Source of the DNA: a virus
DNA: 24,887 bases
IMG/VR virus record: IMGVR_UViG_3300031658_000112
Coordinates: 1-24,887 of that record
Strand: one strand, 5' to 3'
The notes beneath the pieces are model-generated. The model did not search any database and was not told the DNA's origin. It saw nothing but the letters and a program-made list of their open reading frames with translations. This document shows positions 1,469 to 23,993 of the stretch, in pieces. The translations under genes were made by a program, and so were the position numbers. How positions within the stretch are numbered: position 1 is the first letter of the stretch; each line of letters opens with the position of its first letter.

Positions 1469-2188
1469 TTAGAGATTGAGAGTAGCAGTAGCGACTACGG
1501 CATTTTCTGCCCAGTCAAGTCCACCAATATCATTCTTGCTCAAATCGGTTCCAACATAAGCAACTTCTACATCTAACTTTTCTAGCAAAGTTACAGTGCC
1601 AGATACTTGGAAGTTGAAATACTTATCATCGCCATTAGCGAAAGTAGCAGTATCTAAGAAAGTTTCACCAACTTGTGCGCCAAGAGTTACAAATCCAACT
1701 TTATGATTGTATCCAGCAAAAACATATGTTGCCTTTCCACTTTCACCATAACCATCGTCTGTCCAGTTAACGCCAACTTCAACGCCTTTCCAATCAGCAG
1801 CGGCATATACTTCACCGTAGTCATTGTTGTCGTTGCTACCATCATTAGGATAGGTGTAGTAGATGTAACCTACATCAACCGCAACATCGGATACTGAAAA
1901 TGTGTATCCAGCACTATAGTCAAGTTCAAGAGTTGCTTCATCGTTACCGACAGAATTAAAGTCGATTGAAGAACCCCAAACACCAGCATGAAAACCTGAT
2001 GTGTGATTAAGGTTGATAGAACCTTGCATTGCAACATCATCGTTAGATTGACTGATACCACGGAAACGATAGTCGGATGTAACGGCAAGAGAACCGTCTA
2101 GTGACAGGTCTTCAACGAAAGTATTGGCGATGGCATTGCCAGCGAATAATGAGGCAGCGACTGCTCCACAGATTAAAGTTTTGTTCAT
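1469..2188 (-). CDS. TorF/Gcw_chp-type putative outer-membrane porin
   Basis: 239 residues with a clear signal peptide: MNKT, a hydrophobic core at residues 5-17, and an A-I-A cleavage motif ending at residue 21. The mature start carries the hallmark of the TIGR02001/Gcw_chp (TorF-type) family: SLAVTSDYRFRGISQS, then a QGSINL strand and GFHAGVWGSSIDF. The rest alternates strand-like segments ending in aromatic or hydrophobic residues (DYSAGY, VDVGYIYYTY, GVEVGVNW, VEVAYVG), as expected for a small beta-barrel; the last strand ends ATLNL. It would be exported by Sec and inserted in the host outer membrane. Substrate is unknown. The SD is AAGGA, 6 nt from the ATG. It sits between gp33 and a small phage gene on the same strand, so it is phage-borne cargo. 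A role in nutrient entry or receptor masking is speculation. Confidence 0.87.
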   Translation of the reverse strand: MNKTLICGAVAASLFAGNAIANTFVEDLSLDGSLAVTSDYRFRGISQSNDDVAMQGSINLNHTSGFHAGVWGSSIDFNSVGNDEATLELDYSAGYTFSVSDVAVDVGYIYYTYPNDGSNDNNDYGEVYAAADWKGVEVGVNWTDDGYGESGKATYVFAGYNHKVGFVTLGAQVGETFLDTATFANGDDKYFNFQVSGTVTLLEKLDVEVAYVGTDLSKNDIGGLDWAENAVVATATLNL

Positions 2189-3692: not shown

Positions 3693-3720
3693 ATTATAAG
3701 CATTCGGAATGAAAAGTCAA
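3693..3720 (-). promoter_or_regulatory. Sigma70-like promoter P2
   Basis: Minus strand: -35 TTGACT (3715-3720), 16-bp spacer TTTCATTCCGAATGCT, -10 TATAAT (3693-3698). The -35 overlaps the stop codon of the last gene of the glycan island (3717). It drives the SH3-like gene and the genes through gp33, possibly the porin. The leader has a short hairpin (CGGGG/CTCCG) about 30 nt upstream of the ATG. Confidence 0.87.
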
Positions 3721-4361
3721 GTCTTTTTCTTGGGGCAGGAAACCATCACTTTGACGTTTTTAGGAAGGTTTATTTTGCAATTAGGATGACTATGGTAAAG
3801 ATAAAAGGTTATCTTAGGGAACTCTTTAAAAATTCCATTCCATATCGGTCGCCAGTTATCAAGCAACTTGTAGTTGTTAGAAGGTTCCCTATCGCTTGAT
3901 AGAACAACGTCTGTATATGAACGCATATTAGTATCAAACAAAGAATCGAAACCATACATATGAATTTCGTCAGGTTGATGCCGAACAGCAGAATAGTGAG
4001 CGGCAAGATGACCGCAGTTAAAGTTAGTTGCTGCAAGATTGGGGTCGCCCAAGTCACAGTATGACGGAACGTGTGTGTAAAACTCGCGGATATGGTGTGC
4101 ATGTTTTATGTAGAATGAAGAGTGTGAGTCCATCCAAATTTTAGGTCTGTTTGCCAGAACCCATTGATACGTATCAAGGTTTACCGAACCCTCTGTAAGT
4201 GCTGCCATCATTTTAAAGTCGCCTATACATGCAGCATAAACATTCCTGACTTCAAACGGTGGAAGATTACAAACGATAAGTTTTCCTTCTCTATCCATGC
4301 GGATTGATTGAGGCATAAGTTGTGCGCTATCACCATTACCAAGGATGTGAATTTTTTTCAT
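3717..4361 (-). CDS. Putative Rossmann-type glycosyltransferase (GT29/MptE-like)
   Basis: 214 residues, soluble. It opens with a strand and glycine loop (KKIHILGNGDSAQL) resembling the GNGPS loop of sialyltransferase-like and MptE-like folds. A later stretch, GHLAAHYSAVRHQPDEIHMY followed by GFDS, matches the second conserved motif of those folds (small-residue helix, then strand and GFD). This makes it a candidate nucleotide-sugar-dependent enzyme, but the family call is by pattern only and catalysis is unproven. The start overlaps the upstream stop (ATGA). It is the last gene of the glycan island. Confidence 0.5.
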   Translation of the reverse strand: MKKIHILGNGDSAQLMPQSIRMDREGKLIVCNLPPFEVRNVYAACIGDFKMMAALTEGSVNLDTYQWVLANRPKIWMDSHSSFYIKHAHHIREFYTHVPSYCDLGDPNLAATNFNCGHLAAHYSAVRHQPDEIHMYGFDSLFDTNMRSYTDVVLSSDREPSNNYKLLDNWRPIWNGIFKEFPKITFYLYHSHPNCKINLPKNVKVMVSCPKKKT

Positions 4362-5008
4362 AAGTTTTTCATCTGCCTTCTAATCTCATCTTTGCCCTTT
4401 TCACCTGTCCAATGCATTATTACTGGATTGCTTGGAACGTTATTATCTATATGATCTATTCTAAGGACATTAAACCTATGAGGCGCATCTGCAATCATCA
4501 TCATCTTACGCATATAGTCACCCCCTATCATAGCATGCATCACTTCTTGGTCTCCACGATGTTCTTTCTTATCAGCGACAGACATCCACTGACGCAAGGT
4601 TGGTGGTCTCCCTTCAAAGGCAACGACTCCGGTATTATGCCAGTCACCATTTTCTGGTCTACGCTTACTCCAAGGGTGGTCCTTAACCATTGTCAGTTTA
4701 TTGTGGACAACGTAGTTGAATATCCCTACAGGGTCTGACATTACTTGGCAGTCTGTGTCCAACCAGCAGACTCTATTAAACTCTTGATGTGCTGCTTCTA
4801 ACATCGCCTCTATCTTTGAGAACCAACCGTTTGCTTTACAAGTAATAATGCGATGGGCAAAGGATGACACACTTGTAAGCATCTCCTCAGTCATACCAAA
4901 GTCGGCAATGATTAGTGGGACTTTGGTATACTTAGAATAGTTATTAATAAACCAAGGCAGTTGCCATTCAGTATTTTTATCACATCCTGTTAAGAAACAT
5001 TCGCTCAT
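4358..5008 (-). CDS. GT-A-fold glycosyltransferase (GT8-like)
   Basis: 216 residues. It begins FLTGCDKNTEWQLPWFINNY, typical of GT-A sugar transferases. The metal-binding DxD motif is clear in RVCWLDTDCQV around residue 94. Further family-like features are NTGVVAFEG (acceptor loop), HRGDQEVMHAMIGG, and a late HWTG segment. It should transfer a sugar from a nucleotide sugar; acceptor unknown. The start overlaps the upstream stop by ATGA and its own stop does the same with the next gene, so it is translated as part of a coupled chain. Confidence 0.8.
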   Translation of the reverse strand: MSECFLTGCDKNTEWQLPWFINNYSKYTKVPLIIADFGMTEEMLTSVSSFAHRIITCKANGWFSKIEAMLEAAHQEFNRVCWLDTDCQVMSDPVGIFNYVVHNKLTMVKDHPWSKRRPENGDWHNTGVVAFEGRPPTLRQWMSVADKKEHRGDQEVMHAMIGGDYMRKMMMIADAPHRFNVLRIDHIDNNVPSNPVIMHWTGEKGKDEIRRQMKNL

Positions 5009-5649
5009 AGTAGTCTGTAACTCTCTCCGTAGTTATGCTTCGCTCCGCAACCTTCCACTCTCTGTATGGTGCTGAAACTATCTCTTGCCTCAACTGGCCA
5101 TGGATAGTACTCTTCAATGAAGTCAAAGTTTCTATTAGATAAAAATATGTCTGTTGGTTGTGCATACTCTTTTGACTTTGCCAACAGTTTGACAGCAGCA
5201 TTTGGTTTCACGATGTATGCGTGTGCGCCTGGAAGATACTGCTTTGAGACCAGCGTATTAACACCCAAGGTCTTTGGAGTAATGAACTTGCCGTAACTGG
5301 GTGCGCCTAAAGATAGAACTCCCTTGAAGTTTAAAAACTCTGGGAGGAAATCTGTGAAGACTGCATCGTGTTCTAAGACAAGGACATCCTCGTTATTTTT
5401 TACAGACCAGTGCCAGAGTCTTTGATGCGACAGGAATGCTGAAAGACAGTTCTCAAAACGAGAATACTTTTCAACAAATCCTTTAGGGTCAATGCCCAGT
5501 TCTTTGGCAATAGTGAGCGGGGCGTGTTCCGGTGTAAAGGCAAATGATTTCTCTACCTTCACCCCATATTTCTCACCCGACTTGATACATCGCAATGCAC
5601 ATTTTTCAGACTCAATCATTCCTTCTATTGTTATGACAAATGCTTTCAT
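5005..5649 (-). CDS. GT25-family glycosyltransferase
   Basis: 214 residues. Family-25 (LOS/LPS galactosyltransferase-like) features: the opening strand KAFVITIEG, the acceptor helix CLSAFLSHQRLWHWSVKN, and the acidic motif VLVLEHDAVF (the family usually has LEDD). A later PGAHAYIVKPNAAVKLL matches the GAYLI..GA..LL segment, and QPTDIFLSN follows. It would transfer a hexose to a lipid-linked, protein or surface glycan. Translation is coupled to both neighbours by ATGA overlaps. It is a diverged paralogue of the next upstream gene (5646-6383). Confidence 0.8.
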   Translation of the reverse strand: MKAFVITIEGMIESEKCALRCIKSGEKYGVKVEKSFAFTPEHAPLTIAKELGIDPKGFVEKYSRFENCLSAFLSHQRLWHWSVKNNEDVLVLEHDAVFTDFLPEFLNFKGVLSLGAPSYGKFITPKTLGVNTLVSKQYLPGAHAYIVKPNAAVKLLAKSKEYAQPTDIFLSNRNFDFIEEYYPWPVEARDSFSTIQRVEGCGAKHNYGESYRLL

Positions 5650-6383
5650 AGTTTAGTAGTTGTTGATACTCCTGCCTGAACATTAGTGTAGTATGGATAG
5701 ACAACGCGCAACCAAGGGAATAACTGTCGGCACATTATTGCATCGTTTGGCCACATGCCCACTTCGAGAATTTTGTTAAGAAGTTCTTTAGCGGCATGAG
5801 GTCTTATTATATAGGCACTGTTTCCAGCGATGCCCATAGGAAGTGGAGGTTCACTATCGTCATCAATCTTTGGAACCTTATGTATTCCGTTAGAACCGGA
5901 AACCATAGAATGAAACTTATTCCCTTTGCGAGTGTTTCCGCGAGGGTCGTTGAGTCCAATGACTCCACACTGCTCATCAGCGTAATCGTCAGGATTAAAC
6001 TTACGAGTAAACTTTGCATCATGTTCAAGGACAACAATCGGTTCGTCAAGGTCTACACATTTCTTCCACAGACTGAAATGACTCAGGGCGCATGCCTTAA
6101 CTCTGTTTTGGTCAAGTGCGGGATACTGCTTTTGATGCAGACCTGTACGAAAGCAGACAGATGTTTCGCCATCTGTAGTTGGCCAAGACCATCGGACACT
6201 TTTACCAAAGACTTCAAACATAGCATCAATAATAGAAGTGCCACCTTGATCTCCTTTCGGAACAACTGCTTCGAATCGTTCTAGGGAGAGTTTGGTTGAT
6301 GTTGACCGAATACTTGCCTCCAGACTTTCAACCATTCTAACAGAGTCTGGGTTAGAAGACATTCTTATTACAAATCCCTTCAC
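5646..6383 (-). CDS. GT25-family glycosyltransferase (paralogue)
   Basis: Same signature as its downstream neighbour: KGFVIRM, VKACALSHFSLWKKC, IVVLEHDAKF, AGNSAYIIRPHAAKELL and WPNDAIM. I prefer the GTG start at 6383, giving a 245-residue protein beginning (M)KGFVIRM; it overlaps the upstream stop as GTGA and has an AGGA 8-9 nt upstream. The longer reading from 6416 would add 11 residues encoded inside the methyltransferase gene. The two tandem GT25 genes look like an old duplication and may add successive sugars. Confidence 0.8.
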   Translation of the reverse strand: MKGFVIRMSSNPDSVRMVESLEASIRSTSTKLSLERFEAVVPKGDQGGTSIIDAMFEVFGKSVRWSWPTTDGETSVCFRTGLHQKQYPALDQNRVKACALSHFSLWKKCVDLDEPIVVLEHDAKFTRKFNPDDYADEQCGVIGLNDPRGNTRKGNKFHSMVSGSNGIHKVPKIDDDSEPPLPMGIAGNSAYIIRPHAAKELLNKILEVGMWPNDAIMCRQLFPWLRVVYPYYTNVQAGVSTTTKL

Positions 6384-6907
6384 CTCTTTTGTCCTATGAA
6401 TACATGGTCTTTCCATCTTGCGGAACGCTCTTCCCAGTTTCCATTATCAATCCAGTCAGCGATGACTCGCAGTCCAGATTCTTCTGCGATTGCTTTAAAC
6501 GAATCGGGATAGTATCGCCAGCAGTCTATCACATCGTGAACCTTACCTGCTGATGGAGCAATCAAAATCATGTAGTGTCCTTTCTTCAGGACTCGCGTCA
6601 ACTCAGCAGCAGACCTAAAAGGATTTTTAATATGCTCAAATGTCTGACCAGATACAACAAGGTCTATCGAGTTATCAGGAAGGTCTATCTGATAAGGGTG
6701 TGACATAAGGTGCGTGACATTAGGTGCTGTCTCAATATCTGCAATGTAATAGTTCTTACAGATGTCGGAGAAGACTGTCTTGTATGAACGGTCACGGTCT
6801 ACTTTAATATCTCGTCCACCTAAGTCTAGGATGGTGAGGTCTGTTCCCAAGTTATGCTCGATCTTCGCTCTTGCGAGTTGCATGTTATGATATGATGATG
6901 GGTGCAT
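6380..6907 (-). CDS. Class I SAM-dependent methyltransferase (Methyltransf_11-like)
   Basis: 175 residues. Motif I is LTILDLGGRDI near residues 24-34. An acidic post-I region follows, then DLPDNSIDLVVSGQTFEHI (motif IV and post-IV region, typical of Methyltransf_11) and VLKKGHYMILIAPS. The substrate cannot be read from sequence; among glycosyltransferases, methylation of a sugar is the natural guess. The start shares one base with the upstream stop (TAATG), and it runs into the GT25 gene by a GTGA overlap. Confidence 0.82.
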   Translation of the reverse strand: MHPSSYHNMQLARAKIEHNLGTDLTILDLGGRDIKVDRDRSYKTVFSDICKNYYIADIETAPNVTHLMSHPYQIDLPDNSIDLVVSGQTFEHIKNPFRSAAELTRVLKKGHYMILIAPSAGKVHDVIDCWRYYPDSFKAIAEESGLRVIADWIDNGNWEERSARWKDHVFIGQKR

Positions 6908-7512
6908 TATGTCCTCTCAATACTAAATTGTGATGTTGAACCTTCTTGTCGAATGACGAGACTGTGGGTTGCTGCAAAATCATTCACTGCCTTCGTCACG
7001 CCCACCTTCCCATGCTTCTGGAATGGCCAAGCAAAATCGTCTCCAAGAATAAGTCCACCTTTTTTAACTACCTTCAAAGCGTTATTCAAGTCTCTTAGAC
7101 AACCTTCGAAGGAATGGTCACCGTCAATGTAAATCCAGTCTAGTTTTCCTTTAAAGGTTTCAAACCATTCGTCAGATGTTTGACGATGGATTTTAACTTG
7201 GGGTGATTTGGAGAATCTCTTCACAACTTGATTATAAGTCTTCTCATAGTATGCTTTAAAGTGTTCCTCTGTACTTCCACCAGTAAGTTTCGAATATCGC
7301 TCAAGGTAGTTTTCATAACTTCCATGCTCACCGATACTACTCTGGTATGGTTCTACCGACCAAGAATCAACGAGGTGTAATTCTTTAACCCCGCGCTTTA
7401 GAAACTCTGCGGATGTGTTTGCTTTCCAAACTCCAATCTCAGCACCAACTGTTCCTTTGCTCACAAGGTACATGATATCCTTCGAGTCTTTGTTAAAATC
7501 CGATCCCATCAT
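6907..7512 (-). CDS. Class I SAM-dependent methyltransferase (Methyltransf_24-like)
   Basis: About 201 residues from ATG 7512, which overlaps the sulfotransferase stop as ATGA and has GGAG 9 nt upstream. A longer reading would use TTG 7527. Motif I is GAEIGVWKANTSAEFLKRG; the next strand is ELHLVDSW; LDWIYIDGDHSFEG is the hallmark of this O-methyltransferase group; GGLILGDDFAW follows. That IDGDH..... GDD pattern is common in enzymes acting on sugar or small-molecule hydroxyls. It sits between the sulfotransferase and a second methyltransferase in a coupled chain. Confidence 0.82.
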   Translation of the reverse strand: MMGSDFNKDSKDIMYLVSKGTVGAEIGVWKANTSAEFLKRGVKELHLVDSWSVEPYQSSIGEHGSYENYLERYSKLTGGSTEEHFKAYYEKTYNQVVKRFSKSPQVKIHRQTSDEWFETFKGKLDWIYIDGDHSFEGCLRDLNNALKVVKKGGLILGDDFAWPFQKHGKVGVTKAVNDFAATHSLVIRQEGSTSQFSIERT

Positions 7513-8207
7513 TGTCTTTGTCTCCAATAATTTTTCTTTGCGCCAGAATCAAAATCATAACCGAACATATCAATGTCTGCCTTGTACCAATCTGCAACTA
7601 TCTGAATAGTCTTGTCTGTGTAAACATCCATGTATGACCCTTCATTTAATGCTGTCACATTCCTTGCGCGTGACATCTGTGAGACATTGAAATACGCACA
7701 TAGGTCTGCGTTCAAATTTTCAAATCGCATCATGTCGCACATAAGATTTCCGTTTATGTCTGAGACATGGTCAGCCGCTGGGAACCAACCACGAATCGCA
7801 CGATGCCACATGTAGTCTTTGCCACCCCAGATAAAACGCTCTTCTAAAAAGTGTTCAAAGGAATCTATGTTGTGCTTGCCAACGGGTTCTTTCTTCTCCA
7901 CTTCAATAACTTTCTTTGCAAAGAAGTATCGACTGACAACTCTGTCCCAAGGATTACGCGCAACTGCGAATGGGCGATAGAGACTTCGTGCAGGATAACT
8001 AATGTCCCTCCAACGCGCATGCTCATTTCCGTGATGATCCCCATTACGCTTCATGACTTCGTGAAGTCCTTGAGTGTATTTTTTAGAGATGTGATTGTCT
8101 GGTGATGCCACTATGAGGTAAGGTGCAAGTACAGGACTTTTTCGTATTGTCATCCCACAGCATTTTGGGATATGAATGAACAGTCTCTTTTGGTTTTCAA
8201 ATATCAT
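7509..8207 (-). CDS. Sulfotransferase (Sulfotransfer_2-like)
   Basis: 232 residues. PAPS-dependent sulfotransferases carry a 5'-phosphosulfate loop HIPKTGGTS and a 3'-phosphate motif RNPWDR. Here RLFIHIPKCCGMTIRKSP (residues 8-25) supplies the first loop with an unusual C-C-G-M, and FAVARNPWDRVVSRYFFAK the second. DMMRFENLNADL near the middle matches the family's RFENL segment, and a helical C-terminus follows. It would put sulfate on a carbohydrate. The start overlaps the homing-endonuclease 3' end by 11 nt; the stop overlaps the methyltransferase start. Confidence 0.85.
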   Translation of the reverse strand: MIFENQKRLFIHIPKCCGMTIRKSPVLAPYLIVASPDNHISKKYTQGLHEVMKRNGDHHGNEHARWRDISYPARSLYRPFAVARNPWDRVVSRYFFAKKVIEVEKKEPVGKHNIDSFEHFLEERFIWGGKDYMWHRAIRGWFPAADHVSDINGNLMCDMMRFENLNADLCAYFNVSQMSRARNVTALNEGSYMDVYTDKTIQIVADWYKADIDMFGYDFDSGAKKNYWRQRQ

Positions 8208-8871
8208 AATAGTCTTCTCTGGTTTTCAAGCGATAGTTGATGCAACCTCTGCTCACGGACATTGACTCTGCCGCGAACTTTACCGAGTCATAGACAACTC
8301 CTTCGCAAGATATTTTTCTGCCAAGAAGTTTTCTCCTTGCCAACTTGAACTCTTCTGTGTGTTGCTTCCCATAGAAGGGGTTGCGCTTTCCTGTTGGCGG
8401 GTTCTCTTTTAGATATGCTTTCCTTGACTCACTTATTTTCTTCTTCGTCCCTTCATTCCAGAAGAAGTTCCCACTTCTTTCTGTGGTAAAGTTGTGCGCT
8501 TGAAGGTTCTTGACGCAGTCATTCTCTATTGCCCACTCACTCAGTCTCTCGCGGTGCTGTGGAGTCCTTTGATAGTTTCCAGAGGCGACACCAGAACTTT
8601 GGTTTAGATAGTCTTCGCGGGAGCAGACCTTGAGTCGCCTCAACACTTTATGTTCCCAAAGTATTGCTTGACTTTTCATTCTAAACTTTTTGCGAACTTC
8701 CACGATGTCAGGTTCTCCCAACTCTGCGCGGAGTGCCGCGACAGGTGCTGAAGAAGTAAAATAAGTTTTCCAGAGGTCGGTCGGTTGGCATCCCTCGGCA
8801 TACTTGACACCGTAATAAGACTTGCCGACTTTCGTCCAGTGAAGGAAGTAAGTAAAAGGTTCTGTAAGCAT
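8197..8871 (-). CDS. GIY-YIG homing endonuclease with NUMOD3 domain
   Basis: About 224 residues from ATG 8871 (a GTG at 8886 would add 5). The nuclease domain shows Y13 (FTYFLHW), GKSYYGVKY, DLWKTYFTSS, E78 in AILWEHKVL and N95 in EDYLNQS (numbered from the GTG), the expected catalytic set of phage GIY-YIG enzymes. The C-terminal half has NUMOD3-type repeats (GKRNPFYGKQHTEEFKLARR) and a NUMOD1-like DNA-binding end (VYDSVKFAAESMSVSRGCIN). Such genes spread by cutting alleles that lack them. It is inserted in the glycan island between a methyltransferase and the sulfotransferase and has its own promoter, P3. Confidence 0.85.
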   Translation of the reverse strand: MLTEPFTYFLHWTKVGKSYYGVKYAEGCQPTDLWKTYFTSSAPVAALRAELGEPDIVEVRKKFRMKSQAILWEHKVLRRLKVCSREDYLNQSSGVASGNYQRTPQHRERLSEWAIENDCVKNLQAHNFTTERSGNFFWNEGTKKKISESRKAYLKENPPTGKRNPFYGKQHTEEFKLARRKLLGRKISCEGVVYDSVKFAAESMSVSRGCINYRLKTREDYYDI

Positions 8872-8877
8872 CACTCT

Positions 8878-8905
8878 ATTATCCACATCTGGAATGAGAA
8901 GTCAA
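8878..8905 (-). promoter_or_regulatory. Sigma70-like promoter P3 at the homing endonuclease
   Basis: Minus strand: -35 TTGACT (8900-8905), 16-bp spacer TCTCATTCCAGATGTG, -10 GATAAT (8878-8883). It is the same spacer family as P1, P2 and P4, with the weakest -10. The -10 covers the GTG codon at 8886-8884 in part, and ATG 8871 lies 6 nt past the -10. So the start of transcription may coincide with the A of that ATG. It should also feed the sulfotransferase and downstream genes. Confidence 0.8.
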
Positions 8906-8908
8906 CCA

Positions 8909-9484
8909 CTACTTTCTCTTCGCCTCATAGATTACACTGTCCCTAGACTTCTTCTGTTGCATTGCCTTGGTAGTTATTACTTCCAGACCTAACCCCTCAA
9001 GGAAGGCAACCATCTCGCCCCTATCGACTTGTAAGGGGTCTGTCGCGTCCGATACCGTGTGGTTTGCCTGATAGGTGTAGTCGATGTAGAGTCTGCCATT
9101 CTCTGACAGTTGATCTCTCCAAGTGATAATAGTTTCTTCTGGAGACATAGAGTGGTCAAAGGCATTGCTGTAAACGATATCCCAGTAACCTTCCCATTCA
9201 ACTTTACTATGGGTAAAGTCCCACTGGGTTGTTAGCGGAAAGGAACTTGCTGTGTCTGATATTTCTGTACCAAGAACTTCAGCATCAGGAAAGGACTCCA
9301 GAAACATTTTCTGCTCTGCACCATTGCGCGTCCCGTGACAGAGAACAGTTTTAGCATCACCCTTCATCTGTGCTATGGTCTTGACAACTTTGGCATCCAC
9401 ATAGACATTATCTATTTTTCTTTTATTGCCTTCTGTCTGTGCTTCAACGTAGTGGTCGTAGTCATTGTACTTAAATATTTTCAT
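8909..9484 (-). CDS. Class I SAM-dependent methyltransferase
   Basis: 191 residues. Motif I is TVLCHGTRNGAEQKMF near residues 46-61, a G-x-R-x-G-x-E variant found in some sugar and phage methyltransferases. The next strand is AEVLGTEIS with the acidic SAM-ribose residue. Then WDIVYSNAFDHS (motif IV) and LSENGRLYIDYTY. Substrate is unknown. The start overlaps the upstream glycosyltransferase stop (ATGA). The stop lies 3 nt before the -35 of promoter P3, so the homing-endonuclease insertion begins directly behind it. Confidence 0.78.
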   Translation of the reverse strand: MKIFKYNDYDHYVEAQTEGNKRKIDNVYVDAKVVKTIAQMKGDAKTVLCHGTRNGAEQKMFLESFPDAEVLGTEISDTASSFPLTTQWDFTHSKVEWEGYWDIVYSNAFDHSMSPEETIITWRDQLSENGRLYIDYTYQANHTVSDATDPLQVDRGEMVAFLEGLGLEVITTKAMQQKKSRDSVIYEAKRK

Positions 9485-10269
9485 TCGCCTATTTCCTTCA
9501 TTAGTGTTTTCACATCTTCGCCTTTGTTGGGAAGTTTGTCCTTTAGGAAAAAATGAATGAAATGTGCTTCAGATATTTTTTCGTCTTTAACGCCTTTGTA
9601 CAGCGCGTTGTATTTCCAATCTATGTCTTGCACTTTCATGCCAGACTTCTTGACCCACCAGTTTAATAGTGTCTGGTCTGTTGACCACTTCCAGTGACCA
9701 TCTCCGTCAATGAATCTTTTGAACTCAACTCGGTTTAGAAACTGGCGAGAGTCTTGACCTTTAAAAAACGGGACAATAGATTTGTTCATCACAATCATCC
9801 CCATATTATAAAACTTCGCGCCCCAACCATTCCACTCCCAATCGACATCTTTGAGAGACTGGTATTGCATATGAGAATAGTTGTGAATCTTTTTTGCATA
9901 TTCTGTTGTGATGGGCATATCTCTTTCAACGCATGCCCCAAAGGAACAGTCATCAGAAAGTTGGTCAAAGATATTTGGAGCATTCGGACGGATGTAAATG
10001 TCGGCATCGATGATTGCTATTTGATCATAGCGATCAAAGTAATCGAATGCTCTTTCCTTTTCATAGATAGGCAGAAACCCACCATGCTTAGTGTAGGATT
10101 CTTTACTACGATTGGTCGCGAAAATGTCTGGGCAAATACGCAACACTGGTTTGCGTAATACTATGTGGTCTATCTTATGAATTTTACAGTATGCTTTTAC
10201 AGATTCAATGCAGTGTTCATAAAGGGTAGACTGCTGACCAACAGCAACCTGAAATATCATTCGTTTCAT
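9481..10269 (-). CDS. GT-A-fold glycosyltransferase (GT8-like)
   Basis: 262 residues. It begins MIFQVAVGQQSTLYEHCIESV with the first strand of a GT-A domain. The metal-binding motif is QIAIIDADIYI (D-A-D) around residues 88-92. Then KFYNMGMIVMNKS (the donor/acceptor NxG segment), WSTDQTLLNWWVKK (the D-Q motif common in GT8/GT32-type enzymes) and HFIHFFLKDK near the end. Start ATG 10269 has an AGGA SD at 6 nt. It is the first gene of the glycan island, about 50 nt after the putative holin. Confidence 0.8.
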   Translation of the reverse strand: MKRMIFQVAVGQQSTLYEHCIESVKAYCKIHKIDHIVLRKPVLRICPDIFATNRSKESYTKHGGFLPIYEKERAFDYFDRYDQIAIIDADIYIRPNAPNIFDQLSDDCSFGACVERDMPITTEYAKKIHNYSHMQYQSLKDVDWEWNGWGAKFYNMGMIVMNKSIVPFFKGQDSRQFLNRVEFKRFIDGDGHWKWSTDQTLLNWWVKKSGMKVQDIDWKYNALYKGVKDEKISEAHFIHFFLKDKLPNKGEDVKTLMKEIGE

Positions 10270-12945: not shown

Positions 12946-13377
12946 TTATTTAGTCACGCAAGTTTTTAGGTGCTTGCGGTGTATCTTACAATTCAAAATG
13001 CCGTTATAATAATCATCTCTTATTAAAACATCCCTATCCAATTGTTCTTTAATCTCCATGTAAGATAAATCGCCTTTGGATTTTCCAAAATGAAGTATCT
13101 CTCTGTGGAAATGGTTCTCTGTGACACCCTCAGTTACCTTCTGCTTGATGGTCTCATTACTACCATAGTAAGTACGCCAGTCACTTTCCACGATTGACCT
13201 GACGCGCCTCTTGCGCTTCTGAGTGATGGGTAGAGTTTTTGGTTTATGAAAATATTTCTTACCGACATACTTCATTCCCGTATCTTTCTCAGTAATGACA
13301 TAGACAAAACCCTGATATTCCTTTGGTTCGTCTTCGTAGAGTGGGTCATAGACCTTACCCTTATAGTGCCATGTCAT
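12946..13377 (-). CDS. SegE-like GIY-YIG endonuclease
   Basis: 143 residues. GIY-YIG features: Y26 in GFVYVITEKDTG, then MKYVGKKYF (Y37-V-G39), WRTYYGSNE, the catalytic-type glutamate in LSYMEIKEQL, and N in YYNGILNCKI. A basic insert (QKRKRRVRS) lies between the strands. Small proteins with this layout (T4 SegE-like) are frequent in T4-like phages and may act as free-standing homing endonucleases or as DNA-processing nucleases. The ATG is 2 nt after the zinc-ribbon stop, in the nrd operon. Confidence 0.8.
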   Translation of the reverse strand: MTWHYKGKVYDPLYEDEPKEYQGFVYVITEKDTGMKYVGKKYFHKPKTLPITQKRKRRVRSIVESDWRTYYGSNETIKQKVTEGVTENHFHREILHFGKSKGDLSYMEIKEQLDRDVLIRDDYYNGILNCKIHRKHLKTCVTK

Positions 13378-17770: not shown

Positions 17771-18835
17771 CTATTTCTTAGGTTTCTTAGCATCACCATT
17801 ATTAAGGTTGTCGCCTCGTCTGCTAGGAGACTGACTCTTAACACCAGTAGGAAGAGCTGCTTTGTTGTCTTCCAAGTCTTCAAGGTCAGGGTTAGATTTC
17901 TTATGCATAGCAACAAAACCCTTTTCGCCTTCAGATGCAGTGTCATCATAAGGTTCTGATCTGCTTGCGCCTTGAGTTTGCTTGTTCGCTTCCATTACTG
18001 CGAGTGCTTCGCGCATACTAGATACTCTCCAGTCTGCTTCAGATGCAAAGTCTTCCTTACGCATACCCTTCATCTTTTCAGATGTGGGTTCACCATTGTC
18101 AGACTCTTCACGCATTCCTCTAGCTTTAGGAAGCGCACGACTTATGCCCTTGAAGCGATTGTCTTGTTTTCTTGCAGCTTTATCGAACTTAGCAAGTCCT
18201 TGCTTTGATCTCTTTGTCGCTAATACGTCATCCATTTTTTTGTCTTGGTTTTTTATATCTTGTCGTGCCTTATTCACATACCTACCCGCAAGACCTTTAC
18301 TAATTTCATCAACTTGCTCGCCATCTTCGTCTTTCTTATCGTCTTTCTTGATACCCTTGTTGGGTTTCTTATCGTCCTTGTATGCTTCTTCTTCATCCGC
18401 TACAGGGTCGTCACTCTCTTCCATCGCCTTCAGTTTCTCACCGATGACTTGCAACCACTCAGGCATTTCAGAAGACTCGTCCATATCGTCATCGTCTTCA
18501 TCATCGCTTTCTTTGTTCTTAGCGAATGGATTGACACCCTTCTTAGGTTTCTTGGATTTATTTTTGTCGTCTTCAGAATCATCTTCTTCAGAATCATCTT
18601 CTTCGTCCTCTTCTTTGACAGGTTTCTCTCCACCGTCAATCTCGTTGTCGATTGCCTTACGCTTCTTATGCAAGAACTCATCAGACGAATCAACATCACC
18701 ATCGTTATCGATGTCTTTGTCTTTTCGGTTTTTAAATTTCTTATCGTTTGCTGCATCATCGACAGGGTCGAGTGTCTTTTTCTCTTGGACTTCTTTCCAA
18801 GATTCCCATATTGATTTAATTGATTCTATGTCCAC
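17771..18835 (-). CDS. Highly acidic, low-complexity phage protein with EF-hand-like loop
   Basis: 354 residues from GTG 18835 (SD CGGAG, 8 nt). It is dominated by Asp, Glu and Lys. Residues 41-52 (DIDNDGDVDSSD) match a 12-residue EF-hand/dockerin loop, with acidic residues at positions 1, 3, 5, 7, 9 and 12, Gly at 6 and Val at 8. Residues 75-120 are nearly all acid/Lys. EQVDE at 173-177 repeats the motif of the 1301-residue protein, followed by ISKGLAGRYVNKARQD, a phrase I associate with internal or head-associated proteins of marine myophages. The C-terminus is hydrophilic. An internal virion or scaffold-like role is plausible; the evidence is composition, the late promoter and the shared motif. 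Confidence 0.75.
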   Translation of the reverse strand: MDIESIKSIWESWKEVQEKKTLDPVDDAANDKKFKNRKDKDIDNDGDVDSSDEFLHKKRKAIDNEIDGGEKPVKEEDEEDDSEEDDSEDDKNKSKKPKKGVNPFAKNKESDDEDDDDMDESSEMPEWLQVIGEKLKAMEESDDPVADEEEAYKDDKKPNKGIKKDDKKDEDGEQVDEISKGLAGRYVNKARQDIKNQDKKMDDVLATKRSKQGLAKFDKAARKQDNRFKGISRALPKARGMREESDNGEPTSEKMKGMRKEDFASEADWRVSSMREALAVMEANKQTQGASRSEPYDDTASEGEKGFVAMHKKSNPDLEDLEDNKAALPTGVKSQSPSRRGDNLNNGDAKKPKK

Positions 18836-19236: not shown

Positions 19237-19564
19237 TTATTCTATTCTCTATAAGTCCAGGTTTCTTTAATGTTAAACGTGTCAGGTTATGCCTTTGGAG
19301 CATATCTGCCAATTCGTTTTTTCTTTCTTCTGACCTCTGAAGTTCCACTTCAAGTTCAGCAGATAAAACTTTAGTTTTGAGAAAGTCCTCTTGCATATCG
19401 TCAATTGCTTTTTTATTATCTTCAGCAGCAATCTGGAGAATAATGTTATTCTCCTCAAGTTGACTTATGATACTCTGGGTATTTTTATAGTACAAATACC
19501 CTCCAGTAGTTACCGCACCAAATCCAAGAACTAATACTAATATTAGTATTAAGGAAGACTGCAT
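19184..19564 (-). CDS. Inner-membrane spanin (i-spanin)
   Basis: 126 residues. One N-terminal membrane segment (SLILILVLVLGFGAVTTGGYLY, residues 3-24) with a short cytoplasmic start, then a long coiled coil (SIISQLEENNIILQIAAEDN through ELEVELQRSEERKNELADML). The end LTRLTLKKPGLIENRINAGT resembles the C-terminus of phage Rz-like proteins. It would sit in the inner membrane and reach across the periplasm to the o-spanin encoded in its 3' overlap. The ATG shares one base with the stop of the 1301-residue gene. Confidence 0.83.
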   Translation of the reverse strand: MQSSLILILVLVLGFGAVTTGGYLYYKNTQSIISQLEENNIILQIAAEDNKKAIDDMQEDFLKTKVLSAELEVELQRSEERKNELADMLQRHNLTRLTLKKPGLIENRINAGTKETFDYIESITSR

Positions 19565-22500
19565 TATTTTCCTTTCTGCTGCATGGAACGTAAAGTCTTC
19601 AAAAGAGTGATGCGATACTTGCGCTTCTGCTCTGGTTTGTCAAGTTTGTCATAGACATTAAGCAGTTTATCTATCTGTGGTTTCTTCAGTCGCACACCCT
19701 CCGCACCTTTGACTGGAGATACCCTGATATCAAACTCACCGTTTCCAAAGTTCGCAGAGTCTTGCGCCCTACGCAATTGCATTACGATATGGTCGTCTTC
19801 ACCTTTTGATGGGCGAACATATGTTGTAGTCTTTGGCAACAGGCGAGTCTTCTTATCTGTGCGCCCCGACTTGGTCATTCGCTTCGCCTTACGGTCTGCG
19901 ATCATTTCCTTTTCGCGTTGGGTCAACTCATCAACCTGTTCAACAGACTCATATGCCTTTCGGTATTCTGCTCTTTGTTTCTTCGGAGTATATAGTCTAG
20001 ACCGACCCTTCGACATATTATCTTTGGCAGTCTTGATAGCGAGTCGAGGTTTGTCGCCTAAGCGTATTAGAGTTTTTACATCCCTCTTAGTTTCGCGATC
20101 CATCTTCTCTTCAATACTTTCAAGCACCCATTCCAAAGGACGGTATGCCTTGCTTGTGCCAGTATTCTTTTTAGCAACCCATTTGTTATCAGGATACTTT
20201 GAACCGATGTGCGAGGAAGTCTTTGCCTTTTGGCCAACCTTTGTTGGTTTTGCTTTAGGTGGAGTTGCCTTGATGTCGTTCTCGTCAAACTGCTCAACAT
20301 CTTCCCTTACAAACTTAACAGGAACCTGAGTCATGCCTTGCTTACCCATATGCTGTGTTACATAGTGTTCACCGTCAGGCCACTTACCCTTAAAGTCTTT
20401 ATGAACTTTGGCATATTTCTTCTTAGTCATTTCGATTTCGCCATTCTTATTCAGTTTAGCGACAATCTCATCAATCTGTTCAACCTGTTCGAGTTGCGTT
20501 GGGTTGACTTTAGCAACCACCCAATCGGGGACATCGAATGCATAATTTTTTACATACTTAATAGCACCCTTGCTATCGCCCTTTTTCATCATAGCAGCAA
20601 CTTTCAGTATGTTAGCCTTTTCCTCTGGATCGATGCGTTTTTGTTTGTGGGCATAATCTTCAATTTCTTTGCCAATCTTTTTTGTCGATCCTTCATCAAT
20701 CTGTTCAACGTTCTCTTTGACGATGTGTCCAGGTTTGTAGGCAGAGGTCAACAGACGAATGAACTTTAGTTTCTGTGATTTGGTTTCAAATACAGGTTCT
20801 TCAATCTCACCAGCAGAACTTTCTTGTGTGAGGTAGTATGCTAACCCACGCTTCATGTTAACTTTGATGAGGGGCATGATGCCACCAGCAGTGGTTCCAC
20901 GACTTGTGTAACGGAAGATTTCTTCTCCCGCACCCAACCTGACACCCTTGGTGTATTTCTTATCGAAGGCATTCAGTTTAAAGATTACCATAGCAGTACG
21001 CGCACTTGTTCCAATAACGCCTACTTCTTTGTAACCTTCTTTGCGACCATATGATAACGCTTGGTCTTCACCAAAATCTGGTTTGTCAGTGTATTGAATC
21101 TCTATCGCCTTTTCCATCAAGGCATTGATGTTGTAAGTTTCAACGCGCATACCTTCTTTCAAAGACTTAGCATTTACTGCCATATCACCCTGTGCCATGC
21201 TGACACTCTTACCGTCCCGCTTGTAGAGGTATGACGCTTGTGCAACAGGATTTTTTACACTCTTCAGGGTAATCTTTTCGACCTTACCACCCTTCAGTTT
21301 GCTTTTGCGAGTTACGATAAATTCTTTACTACCGCTTCCACCCATAACAGAACTGAAATCAATAGTTACTTTCTGTTTGCTCTTCAGTCTATCAAACTGT
21401 TCTACGCTAATACCGCTTTCGGTAAGATGGTCAACAGATTCCTTCACGCCCTTATATTTCTTCTTTATCTGCGCCACTTGTTTCTTTGCAGCGGTTTTAC
21501 CAGAGATCCTCTCAATTTTTCCTATTGAACTTTGGTAGAATTTAGTATCATATGCACTGAGCGTTTTTGGGTTTCCCTTTGATTTCTTGAGGTAGCGGTT
21601 TATGTCTCTAACTGCATCATCAAGTATTTCTGGGTCTTTTTCTGCAAACGCTTGCGCCTTTCTATCTTTGTTTTGTTTATTGATACGGAGAATTGTGTCT
21701 CTTTTTGGCCAATACATCTTGCTACTCTCGTCAACCTGCTCGACATCTTCTTTAATGTCACGAACTACCTTTGCGTGATCTGCTACCAACTTTTGAAGTC
21801 GAATTACTTCTTTAGAATATACTTCTCTGCTCTCATCATCAGCATCTTTTATGGCAAGTTTAAGTCCTGCCTTTGCTTGCATCATTGAATCAACTGCTGC
21901 CTTGTGTGCAGTTCTCTTTGCTGCGTTAACGTGCTTTCTCATACGCTCACGACTTTTACCAACAGCACTTGGATATGCTTCTTCAACCTGCTCGATAGAT
22001 TCGGGAAGTTTCCTTGTCACCTTCTGGTGCTTACTCATAGCATCTTCTACGTCTTTCTTAAATTGGGACATAGAAACTTTGGACAGTTTTCCAGATTTAG
22101 TTTTCTTGCGTCCAGATAAACCTTGACGATCTCGCATTATGTCATGACCACTAACTTTATTGGCGCGCCCGAAATGAACTTTATCAGTCGCCTTTTTGCT
22201 GGAAACTTCAGCAGCAACTTTAGGACCAGCTATCTTCTTAATCACAGACATTGCTTTTTTATAATCATCATCAGTGTATTCATAGTTGCCAGGAGAAAAA
22301 TACATCTGCACAAGTTCTATCATACGCGCTAACAGTTCCTTGTTGTATGGCACAACTTTCTCATCAACCTGCTCGACAGATTCGTTCCGCTGATCTTTCA
22401 TTGCCGATTGAACCTTTGCTTTAACGCTCTTCCAAGCAGCAATGTAGTCCCTCGACTCTTCATTTGGCATTAACTCTTTTACTCTGGCATCAAATGCTTT

Positions 22501-23469
22501 ACGCGCTCCAGGTTTCATTGAAGTGCCACCACTCTTCCAACCATCACGATACAACTTTCCAAGTTCGTCATCTGACTGAGTGAGTTTGTGAACCTTGGCG
22601 ACTACCCTTTTCTGCTTACCAGTAAGGGCTCTCCAAGCATCTTTCACTATTTCTTTTCCTGCCTGTTGATACGTCTTACTGCCATCAATAAGTCCAGGCA
22701 TAAGCATGTTTATGGGTGGAACTGCTTCCAACAAGTCAATGTATGCTTCGTTGAACTCGACAGATTCAGCAAAGGTATCTGAGAACTTCAGTTTAACACC
22801 ATGCTTACGTTTAAGCATATCAGAAGCAGTTTGTGATATGAATTTAATCTTTGCCAGCGCAATGCCTTCAAGTTCTTTCGCGGTTCGCGCTTCCAGAAAC
22901 TTAGTTACCTTCTTCCAAGCAGCACCAGTGGGGTTAACAGTTTTCAAGGTTGCATACTGTTTCCTGAGTGTCTCTATTTGAGCATCGGATAAACCTTCGT
23001 CAATACTTTCCATTGTTCTCTTTCCTTTGGGTGCTGGGTGCATTTTATTTACAGCAGTTTTTGCTTGCGCTGCGCTTTTGTATGGACCCATCTCATGAGT
23101 CTTCTTACCGTCTGTAACTTTGACAAAGATAGGTGAGGACATTGATGTGCCTCGTCTAACTGTCTTAATATTTATATCACCACGAACATATGATGATATG
23201 AGTTTGTCTGTGCTTTCGCCAATAGATTCTTTCTTGCAATCAGGAACCAACTTACCACCTTTCTTCTTAGTGCCAGTTGCCTTGTATCCGTCCCAACAGG
23301 AATCGCTTCCAACATTGTCACGCGCCTTTTCCAAGTCACCTTCTTCTTTGTAGATGTCTTTCTTGTATTTAGAAACGCCCTTCTTAGAATCTTTCTTACG
23401 GTCACGTTCAACAGTCGCTTTGTTAAACGTCCGTAGATGCTTTGCTACGGGATTGCTCTTACCTTTCAT
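19564..23469 (-). CDS. Giant repeat-punctuated lysine-rich protein, possible internal head polyprotein
   Basis: 1301 residues, very rich in Lys, with no membrane segment. Blocks of 40-240 residues are separated by variants of ESVEQVDE: residues 154, 235, 363, 490, 574, 677, 919, 994, 1056, 1117 and 1174, plus a weaker ESIGEST at 81. Near the N-terminus, SCWDGYKATGTKKKGG and LVPDC form a C58/C78 motif seen in uncharacterised proteins of marine phages. Residues 690-765 look beta-rich; most other blocks look helical. Most motif copies end hydrophobic-x-E (VDE, IDE, VEE, FDE, LTE), close to the (L/I)-x-E site of the T4 prohead protease gp21. Head targeting and proteolytic maturation are inference; neither protease nor capsid gene is in the window. 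The SD is AAGGGGA and a late promoter lies at 23495. Confidence 0.75.
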   Translation of the reverse strand: MKGKSNPVAKHLRTFNKATVERDRKKDSKKGVSKYKKDIYKEEGDLEKARDNVGSDSCWDGYKATGTKKKGGKLVPDCKKESIGESTDKLISSYVRGDINIKTVRRGTSMSSPIFVKVTDGKKTHEMGPYKSAAQAKTAVNKMHPAPKGKRTMESIDEGLSDAQIETLRKQYATLKTVNPTGAAWKKVTKFLEARTAKELEGIALAKIKFISQTASDMLKRKHGVKLKFSDTFAESVEFNEAYIDLLEAVPPINMLMPGLIDGSKTYQQAGKEIVKDAWRALTGKQKRVVAKVHKLTQSDDELGKLYRDGWKSGGTSMKPGARKAFDARVKELMPNEESRDYIAAWKSVKAKVQSAMKDQRNESVEQVDEKVVPYNKELLARMIELVQMYFSPGNYEYTDDDYKKAMSVIKKIAGPKVAAEVSSKKATDKVHFGRANKVSGHDIMRDRQGLSGRKKTKSGKLSKVSMSQFKKDVEDAMSKHQKVTRKLPESIEQVEEAYPSAVGKSRERMRKHVNAAKRTAHKAAVDSMMQAKAGLKLAIKDADDESREVYSKEVIRLQKLVADHAKVVRDIKEDVEQVDESSKMYWPKRDTILRINKQNKDRKAQAFAEKDPEILDDAVRDINRYLKKSKGNPKTLSAYDTKFYQSSIGKIERISGKTAAKKQVAQIKKKYKGVKESVDHLTESGISVEQFDRLKSKQKVTIDFSSVMGGSGSKEFIVTRKSKLKGGKVEKITLKSVKNPVAQASYLYKRDGKSVSMAQGDMAVNAKSLKEGMRVETYNINALMEKAIEIQYTDKPDFGEDQALSYGRKEGYKEVGVIGTSARTAMVIFKLNAFDKKYTKGVRLGAGEEIFRYTSRGTTAGGIMPLIKVNMKRGLAYYLTQESSAGEIEEPVFETKSQKLKFIRLLTSAYKPGHIVKENVEQIDEGSTKKIGKEIEDYAHKQKRIDPEEKANILKVAAMMKKGDSKGAIKYVKNYAFDVPDWVVAKVNPTQLEQVEQIDEIVAKLNKNGEIEMTKKKYAKVHKDFKGKWPDGEHYVTQHMGKQGMTQVPVKFVREDVEQFDENDIKATPPKAKPTKVGQKAKTSSHIGSKYPDNKWVAKKNTGTSKAYRPLEWVLESIEEKMDRETKRDVKTLIRLGDKPRLAIKTAKDNMSKGRSRLYTPKKQRAEYRKAYESVEQVDELTQREKEMIADRKAKRMTKSGRTDKKTRLLPKTTTYVRPSKGEDDHIVMQLRRAQDSANFGNGEFDIRVSPVKGAEGVRLKKPQIDKLLNVYDKLDKPEQKRKYRITLLKTLRSMQQKGK

Positions 23470-23483
23470 TGATCTATTCCCCT

Positions 23484-23993
23484 TTAGTCAACTTTATTTA
23501 TACTATTATTAAAGTGCGACTTAAATGAGACAAGGGTTGTTCCTTCCACAGTATATAGGTCTCTATATGCCATCCTGTCTTTCGATCTTAGGTCTTTCAA
23601 CTCTTTGCCGAAAACCTTCAACATCTTTTGGTTCATTTGTTTTTCTTTTGTGTAAGCAGATGTCCAAGCAGACTTTGCTGCTTTCCATTTAGGATTACTT
23701 CTTATGTTATCGGGTGTCATACCCATAGAGTCTTTGTTCTTACTTGGATCATATCCTAATGACTTCTCTACTGCTTCCCACTTTGCTTTCAGTTTGTCAA
23801 CAGTTTTCTTATGAGCAGCAACTTGCTTTGCAGAGAGATAGAATACTTTGCCGTATTCTTTTTCTAAGTCAACTCCCTCATCAACTCCCATCACTTGACC
23901 AGGAGTTACTGACTTTGCCCAAGCAGTGGATGCGTCAGTTCCCCATTCCATTGTCTGTGGATTGTAAGTTTTCTTTTTACGATCTTTCTTCAT
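23484..23993 (-). CDS. Lysine-rich phage protein, unknown function
   Basis: 169 residues. A basic start (MKKDRKKKTYNPQTMEWGTD), a VMGVDEGVDLEKEYG segment with a VDE triplet like that of the adjacent repeat protein, then a largely helical body (AKQVAAHKKTVDKLKAKWEA, KWKAAKSAWTSAYTKEKQMN). The C-terminus ends FNNSINKVD and covers the late promoter at 23495. It starts 7 nt after the upstream stop. Composition like the 1301-residue protein suggests a related virion or scaffold-associated role, but I recognise no family. Confidence 0.68.
   Translation of the reverse strand: MKKDRKKKTYNPQTMEWGTDASTAWAKSVTPGQVMGVDEGVDLEKEYGKVFYLSAKQVAAHKKTVDKLKAKWEAVEKSLGYDPSKNKDSMGMTPDNIRSNPKWKAAKSAWTSAYTKEKQMNQKMLKVFGKELKDLRSKDRMAYRDLYTVEGTTLVSFKSHFNNSINKVD
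23495..23502 (-). promoter_or_regulatory. T4-type late promoter for the giant protein
   Basis: The minus strand reads TATAAATA, an exact T4 late -10 match, 25 nt upstream of the ATG at 23469; the leader contains the SD AAGGGGA. It lies within the 3' end of the 169-residue gene. Both clear late promoters continue with AAA (TATAAATAAA). Confidence 0.72.

Follow-up and report, generated by a model that had tools for sequence, protein, structure and literature searches.

A modular, motif-bounded late protein as a probable capsid-cargo polyprotein of a T4-like marine phage

The 24,887-nucleotide stretch of viral DNA analyzed here (IMG/VR record IMGVR_UViG_3300031658_000112, positions 1 to 24,887; hereafter the window) contains a late gene whose 1301-residue product is divided into blocks by a recurring motif of the type E-S-V-E-Q-V-D-E. 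We consider it probable that this product is a cargo polyprotein for the capsid of a T4-like marine phage, processed by a gp21-type prohead protease. Comparison with related proteins shows the modularity of the chain and the shuffling of its blocks at the motif; cleavage, packaging of the window protein, its delivery and the functions of the cargo are what we infer.

The open reading frame (ORF) is genuine and its coordinates (Table 1) include the stop codon; the product has a mass of 147.0 kDa and an isoelectric point (pI) of 9.8. A strict motif pattern matched this protein six times and none of 2000 composition shuffles, and EQ[VIF] occurred nine times compared with a shuffle mean of 0.5. 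All 11 motif positions listed in the initial annotation (residues 154, 235, 363, 490, 574, 677, 919, 994, 1056, 1117 and 1174) were correct, and homology added two further boundaries, ESIGE (residues 81–85) and NALME (residues 782–786). The resulting 13 sites delimit 14 blocks of 58–140 amino acids each (6.5–15.7 kDa, pI 8.1–10.4). At 13 of 13 boundaries P1 was Glu and P3 was Val, Ile, Leu or Phe, judged by sequence match alone. The consensus of 52 sites from the window protein and its nearest relatives was E-[S/D/E]-[V/A]-E-[Q/H]-[V/I/L/F]-D-E, as obtained with a pattern that fixes Glu at both ends. Pfam recognized DUF7230 alone in the polyprotein and neither an embedded peptidase nor a recognizable enzymatic domain. 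The blocks had been described as unlike each other, which holds within the window protein; homologues of blocks exist in other phages. A folded repeat domain was ruled out, because the blocks are mutually unrelated and unequal in length. AlphaFold models were too poor to be used as evidence, the mean predicted local distance difference test score being 52.5 for block h and 38.7 for the whole homologue from L001, with most of the chain at low confidence like the linkers.

A tblastn search with the full-length protein found no match among cultured phages, so that searches at the level of single blocks and the gene neighborhood were needed. Close relatives of the polyprotein were found only on metagenomic viral contigs, and bacterial genome assemblies, which were searched for the host, contained no relative. 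When the chains were cut at the motif and the blocks compared, 23 block families resulted. The order k-l of the window is l-k in L001, L002 and L003, and block e follows d in the window and h2 in L002. Blocks also change genes: d is part of the polyprotein in the window and of the adjacent acidic gene in L002, while n belongs to the acidic gene in the window and, in L001 and L003, to the polyprotein. Shared blocks begin directly after the motif Glu in nearly all rearranged cases. The initial annotation had raised the question of whether blocks are gained, lost or shuffled between motifs, and the alignment of homologues answers it: blocks are reordered, gained, lost and moved between adjoining genes, with the breaks at the motif. 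Several heterologous domains are combined in one late-gene polypeptide and recombined between phages.

Alignment of the junctions shows that the internal sites are positionally equivalent to the putative ends of N-terminal propeptides, and the families of blocks s and h2 are decisive in this respect. Block h2 was found in 22 contexts, and in all 21 of them with upstream sequence P1 was Glu and P3 Leu, Ile or Val. It stands behind an N-terminal capsid-targeting sequence (CTS) in L147 (MKKFKSFIAE before AYQQF), L154 (MKTIKELMTE before AYQQF) and L143, and behind internal linkers in L020, L025 (ESVELDE before AYQQF), L139, L141, L164 (RETLDE before AYQQF) and L127; the window junction is NALME before KAIEIQ. 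Block h1 is preceded by HLTE in the window, GLSE in L001 and L002, GLTE in L028 and QITE in L033. For block s, P1 was Glu in 57 of 62 distinct junctions, with unrelated upstream sequences (P4–P12 unconserved, upstream length 1–329 amino acids). For a broader comparison, the first 70 amino acids past the targeting-type N-terminus of 196 ORFs were compared with all ORFs. The mature starts of these proteins matched 124 internal places in other proteins, of which 66 had a preceding Glu (background 6.7%), and these places are partly non-independent because the families share ancestry. Six polyproteins of relatives in the slot of the window gene themselves carry an N-terminal CTS (L019, L020, L021, L025, L027 and L032).

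The same junctions bear on an alternative that we regard as unlikely, according to which the motif serves as a flexible linker and as a DNA recombination seam for domain swaps, and the protein persists at full length like beads on a string. The breaks at the motif and the acidity of every linker would fit such a seam, as would the identity of the motif DNA, which was 0.80 compared with 0.70 expected for random synonymous codons. This similarity goes beyond what synonymous drift would leave, so that a spread of linker DNA may account for part of the conservation. However, across phages [LIV]-x-E alone persists at the junctions while the remainder of the linker and its DNA change completely, the same Glu also ends N-terminal propeptides, and P1' in block s is mostly Ala (46 of 62 junctions), as in the Glu-Ala bond of T4. 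A pure recombination seam thus contributes, but leaves the survival of [LIV]-x-E alone in distant phages unexplained.

The motif had been suggested to act as a processing site, a capsid-targeting tag or both, and these two roles fared differently. In the T4 targeting sequence, residues 4 and 7 are needed for targeting and residues 8 and 10 for processing, which an Asp at position 10 prevents. The ESVEQVDE motif has none of the aromatic residues of that sequence, and a by-eye alignment with MKSFSQFSE, which would make it an internal copy, failed the profile test: the eight scored motif sites ranked 23–151 of 1294 under a profile built from 81 N-terminal targeting sequences. We therefore dropped the role as a targeting tag and kept only the cleavage half of the idea, for which the shuffling at the motif, the presence of blocks behind CTSs that share only [LIV]-x-E with it, and gp21 in relatives all speak. 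The internal motif retains only the processing half of the T4 targeting sequence. An N-terminal CTS of the type M-K-[ST]-[FY]-x-x-F-x-x-E is absent from the window protein, which begins with MKGKSNPVAKHLRTF.

A candidate protease is encoded in relatives. T4 gp21 cleaves after L/I-x-E, and a T4-type gp21 (Peptidase_S77) was present in eight of eight related genomes tested; gp23 was found in eight of nine. The gp23 N-termini of the relatives read FLTE, FLSE, FLAE, FLME, MLSE or FMTE at the T4 gp23 cut position, as placed by homology. Products of the related gene slot have been associated with virions in cyanophages. In S-SCSM1, for which 45 proteins are reported from mass spectrometry, five consecutive genes around NMNAT (ORF89–93) are annotated as virion proteins, and ORF92 directly follows NMNAT, at the position of the polyprotein. 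This ORF and the acidic protein of the window have in common a module DVDNDGK..SDKYLLNRRKAI. Among cultured phages, putative boundaries of the same kind occur in ORF92 (EEVELDE before RTRYAK) and in a chain of the Methylophilales phage Melnitz-3 (QZI94974; EIEIDE before MKMDD and EMDE before AKSST). Virions of S-CREM2 contain the cytidylyltransferase and the products of the next two ORFs. The virion annotation of relatives in the same slot, which followed mass spectrometry, further favors the processing role of the motif.

These data also bear on a second alternative, a component of the prohead core or scaffold that is cut by gp21 like T4 gp22, gp67 and gp68 and whose pieces are mostly expelled instead of serving as cargo for the next cell. 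T4 core proteins are indeed cut into several fragments, most of which leave the head, and the acidic neighbor has modules in common with the polyprotein. Yet the blocks are basic, shuffle fast and are non-collinear, unlike a conserved scaffold, and the same blocks carry tags of the internal-protein type. Moreover, G001 has a gp22-like ORF of its own between gp21 and gp23, and relatives in the same slot were found in mature virions, which makes this alternative improbable. A non-virion, intracellular late protein that clusters with virion genes only incidentally would agree with the indirect nature of the virion data for the window protein and with DUF7230 as its sole Pfam match, but is very improbable given that the slot and its neighbors are virion-associated in S-SCSM1 and S-CREM2 and that homologues bear a CTS.

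Under the capsid-cargo reading, small basic cargo proteins would ancestrally have been encoded by separate genes, each carrying an N-terminal propeptide with [LIV]-x-E at its end. These genes would have fused in frame and then been reshuffled as cassettes, the fusion points retaining the [LIV]-x-E processing site, here as E-S-V-E-Q-[VI]-D-E. During head maturation a gp21-type prohead protease would cut behind the final Glu and free about 14 basic proteins of 6.5–15.7 kDa inside the head, which would exit with the DNA at infection. On balance, we also favor the more general proposal of a cassette system, in which capsid-cargo modules are fused and shuffled among several adjacent late genes of T4-like marine phages and the head-maturation protease cuts up the chains within the prohead; a single gene would then load at least 12 different proteins in equal numbers per virion.

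Several points weigh against this reading, in addition to the similarity of the motif DNA. The window, a fragment of 24.9 kb, contains neither gp21 nor gp23 of its own. P3 in the window lineage is mostly Val, whereas T4 gp21 prefers Leu or Ile and the gp23 proteins of the relatives have Leu or Met. With no N-terminal CTS and an internal motif that does not score as one, entry of the window protein into the head is unexplained. The authors of the S-SCSM1 and S-CREM2 studies caution that non-structural proteins among those detected may be carry-over, and for the window protein itself both cleavage and packaging are steps that we infer.

Table 1 Polyprotein blocks and neighboring features in the window.
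Feature	Position	Strand	Basis
Proposed capsid-cargo polyprotein, modular and basic, 1301 aa	19564..23469	-	ORF and homologues
Block 1, aa 1-85: DUF7230 (PF23876) and CWDGYKATGTKKKGGK module (phrog_4359/9737), end ESIGE	23215..23469	-	
Block b, aa 86-158, end ESIDE	22996..23214	-	
Block c, aa 159-241, end ESVEFNE; preceded by QESTDVSE in L032	22747..22995	-	
Block d, aa 242-370, end ESVEQVDE (363-370); in L002 within acidic neighbor gene	22360..22746	-	
Block e, aa 371-497, end ESIEQVEE; also immediately after ESVEQVDE in L002 and L111	21979..22359	-	
Block f, aa 498-581, end EDVEQVDE; common to L006	21727..21978	-	
Block g, aa 582-684, end ESVDHLTE; near-identical counterpart in L005	21418..21726	-	
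Block h1, aa 685-786, HLTE before, end NALME	21112..21417	-	
Block h2, aa 787-926, LME before, end ENVEQIDE; elsewhere a gene with N-terminal capsid-targeting sequence	20692..21111	-	
Block i, aa 927-1001, end EQVEQIDE; two copies in L005	20467..20691	-	
Block j, aa 1002-1063, end EDVEQFDE; in L025 first block behind N-terminal CTS and ESVELDE	20281..20466	-	
Block k, aa 1064-1121, end ESIEE	20107..20280	-	
Block l, aa 1122-1181, end ESVEQVDE	19927..20106	-	
Block m, aa 1182-1301, C-terminal; homologues in marine phages including Melnitz-3	19567..19926	-	
DGEQVDE motif and block n, inside acidic protein	18116..18325	-	
Acidic neighbor, 354 aa; DIDNDGDVDSSDEFL module in common with S-SCSM1 ORF92, annotated virion protein	17771..18835	-	
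169-aa neighbor, probable propeptide ending VMGVDE before GVDLEKEYGK	23484..23993	-	

The whole late cluster around the polyprotein gene lies on the minus strand, with two spanin-like genes and the acidic protein downstream and the 169-residue protein upstream. The single motif copy noted earlier in the acidic protein is present there as DGEQVDE before ISKGLAGRY. In L019 (1597-3066), the acidic neighbor contains a near-perfect internal duplication of about 80 amino acids (ESVEDFVGSLDEEQLDELSKKLLTRYKKKADAQ...). The L002 counterpart of the 169-residue protein reads MKKVTE and then SLDLEKEYGK, compared with a long N-terminal part in the window; by its sequence this neighbor is likely another processed cargo protein. 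In longer relatives, the genes further upstream are those for a cytidylyltransferase-like enzyme (PF01467; phrog_3041), the basic protein of block s and a protein with DUF6267. Targeting-like N-termini (e.g. MINSFKNFLVE and MKSFKGFVTE), which resemble the propeptide of T4 internal proteins, are present in most of the cytidylyltransferases and, in several relatives, in the DUF6267 protein.

In some cytidylyltransferases a small protein has been fused on and a targeting-type linker is retained inside, such as EMKSFKQSIEEA followed by DAKAAL in L079. A small protein of the AxKKKAEKSGMP type is fused to the C-terminus of the cytidylyltransferase in L063, L074, L076, L079, L080 and L084-L087; it is a separate, targeting-tagged gene in L041, and several of the fusions keep a targeting-type sequence as linker. 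The DUF6267 proteins (PF19782) of L002 (910-2145) and L005 (4597-5823), the latter starting with MKSFKGFVTE, contain KWDGAPA, which is reminiscent of nucleotidyltransferase/ligase KxDG motifs, and may be virion-borne nucleic-acid enzymes.

Elsewhere in the window, positions 1469-2188 (minus strand) encode a putative porin of the TorF family (TIGR02001; E 8e-39, clearly past the cut-off) with a signal-like N-terminus. The porin also occurs at L012 12393-13100 (G001 72393-73100), and a similar-looking ORF lies just past gp23 in G001; an outer-membrane protein is unusual in a lytic-type phage genome. A cluster of sugar- and surface-modification-type enzymes at 3717-10269 (minus strand) comprises a PF03407 nucleotide-sugar transferase, GT25 and GT8-like proteins, a PF03567 sulfotransferase and two methyltransferase-like ORFs. 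Homing-endonuclease-like ORFs are located at 8197-8886 and 12946-13377, both on the minus strand (I-TevI DNA-binding domain/NUMOD3; SegE GIY-YIG).

Capsid-delivered proteins serve as first-response tools of counter-defense in T4, where IPI blocks GmrSD and IPIII is needed on strain ECOR17, and such cargo is largely unmapped outside the T-even phages. Should the [LIV]-x-E boundary prove correct, the proteins that T4-like marine phages inject could be read from sequence by cutting chains at the junctions and listing the modules. As each polyprotein holds one copy of each module, delivery would follow an equal-dose logic, and the fusion of tagged genes would offer an evolutionary route by which a processing site turns into a linker. 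The reading also bears on the cytidylyltransferase/NMNAT-like enzyme of the same late cluster, which has its own targeting-type N-terminus and has repeatedly been seen in cyanophage virions with its entry unexplained.

We found no description of a chain of this kind from a T4-like phage in the open literature, subscription papers being outside the search, and the cargo chain is best read as a new variant of the T4 internal proteins. The T4 proteins IPI, IPII and IPIII carry capsid-targeting propeptides of 10–19 amino acids that are cut by gp21 (PMC9026906). The window chain resembles them in its small basic products (about 8, 10 and 20 kDa in T4), the predicted cut after L/I-x-E and a fast-changing repertoire, and in relatives its blocks sit behind MK[ST]F..F..E propeptides. 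T4 internal proteins have one N-terminal propeptide per gene, whereas the window gene has many units per chain, internal processing-type linkers and no N-terminal CTS. The scaffold parts gp22, gp67 and gp68 of T4 likewise have several gp21-type sites per chain, but their pieces are mostly expelled, and the window blocks differ in that they are basic and modular and have been shuffled. The polyvalent proteins of phages and plasmids (Iyer et al. 2017, PMC5512222), such as DdrB of P1, also combine several cargo domains per chain with proteolytic release and, for P1, packaging into the head; they usually contain a peptidase of their own together with enzymatic domains of known type, none of which were found in the window protein, where cutting would occur in trans by the head protease. 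Finally, in the ejection proteins of phiKZ and SPN3US the head protease cuts at several short motifs that have Glu as their last residue, but each gene yields one mature protein and the repeated cuts fall within a discarded propeptide, unlike in the window chain (PMC10052503).

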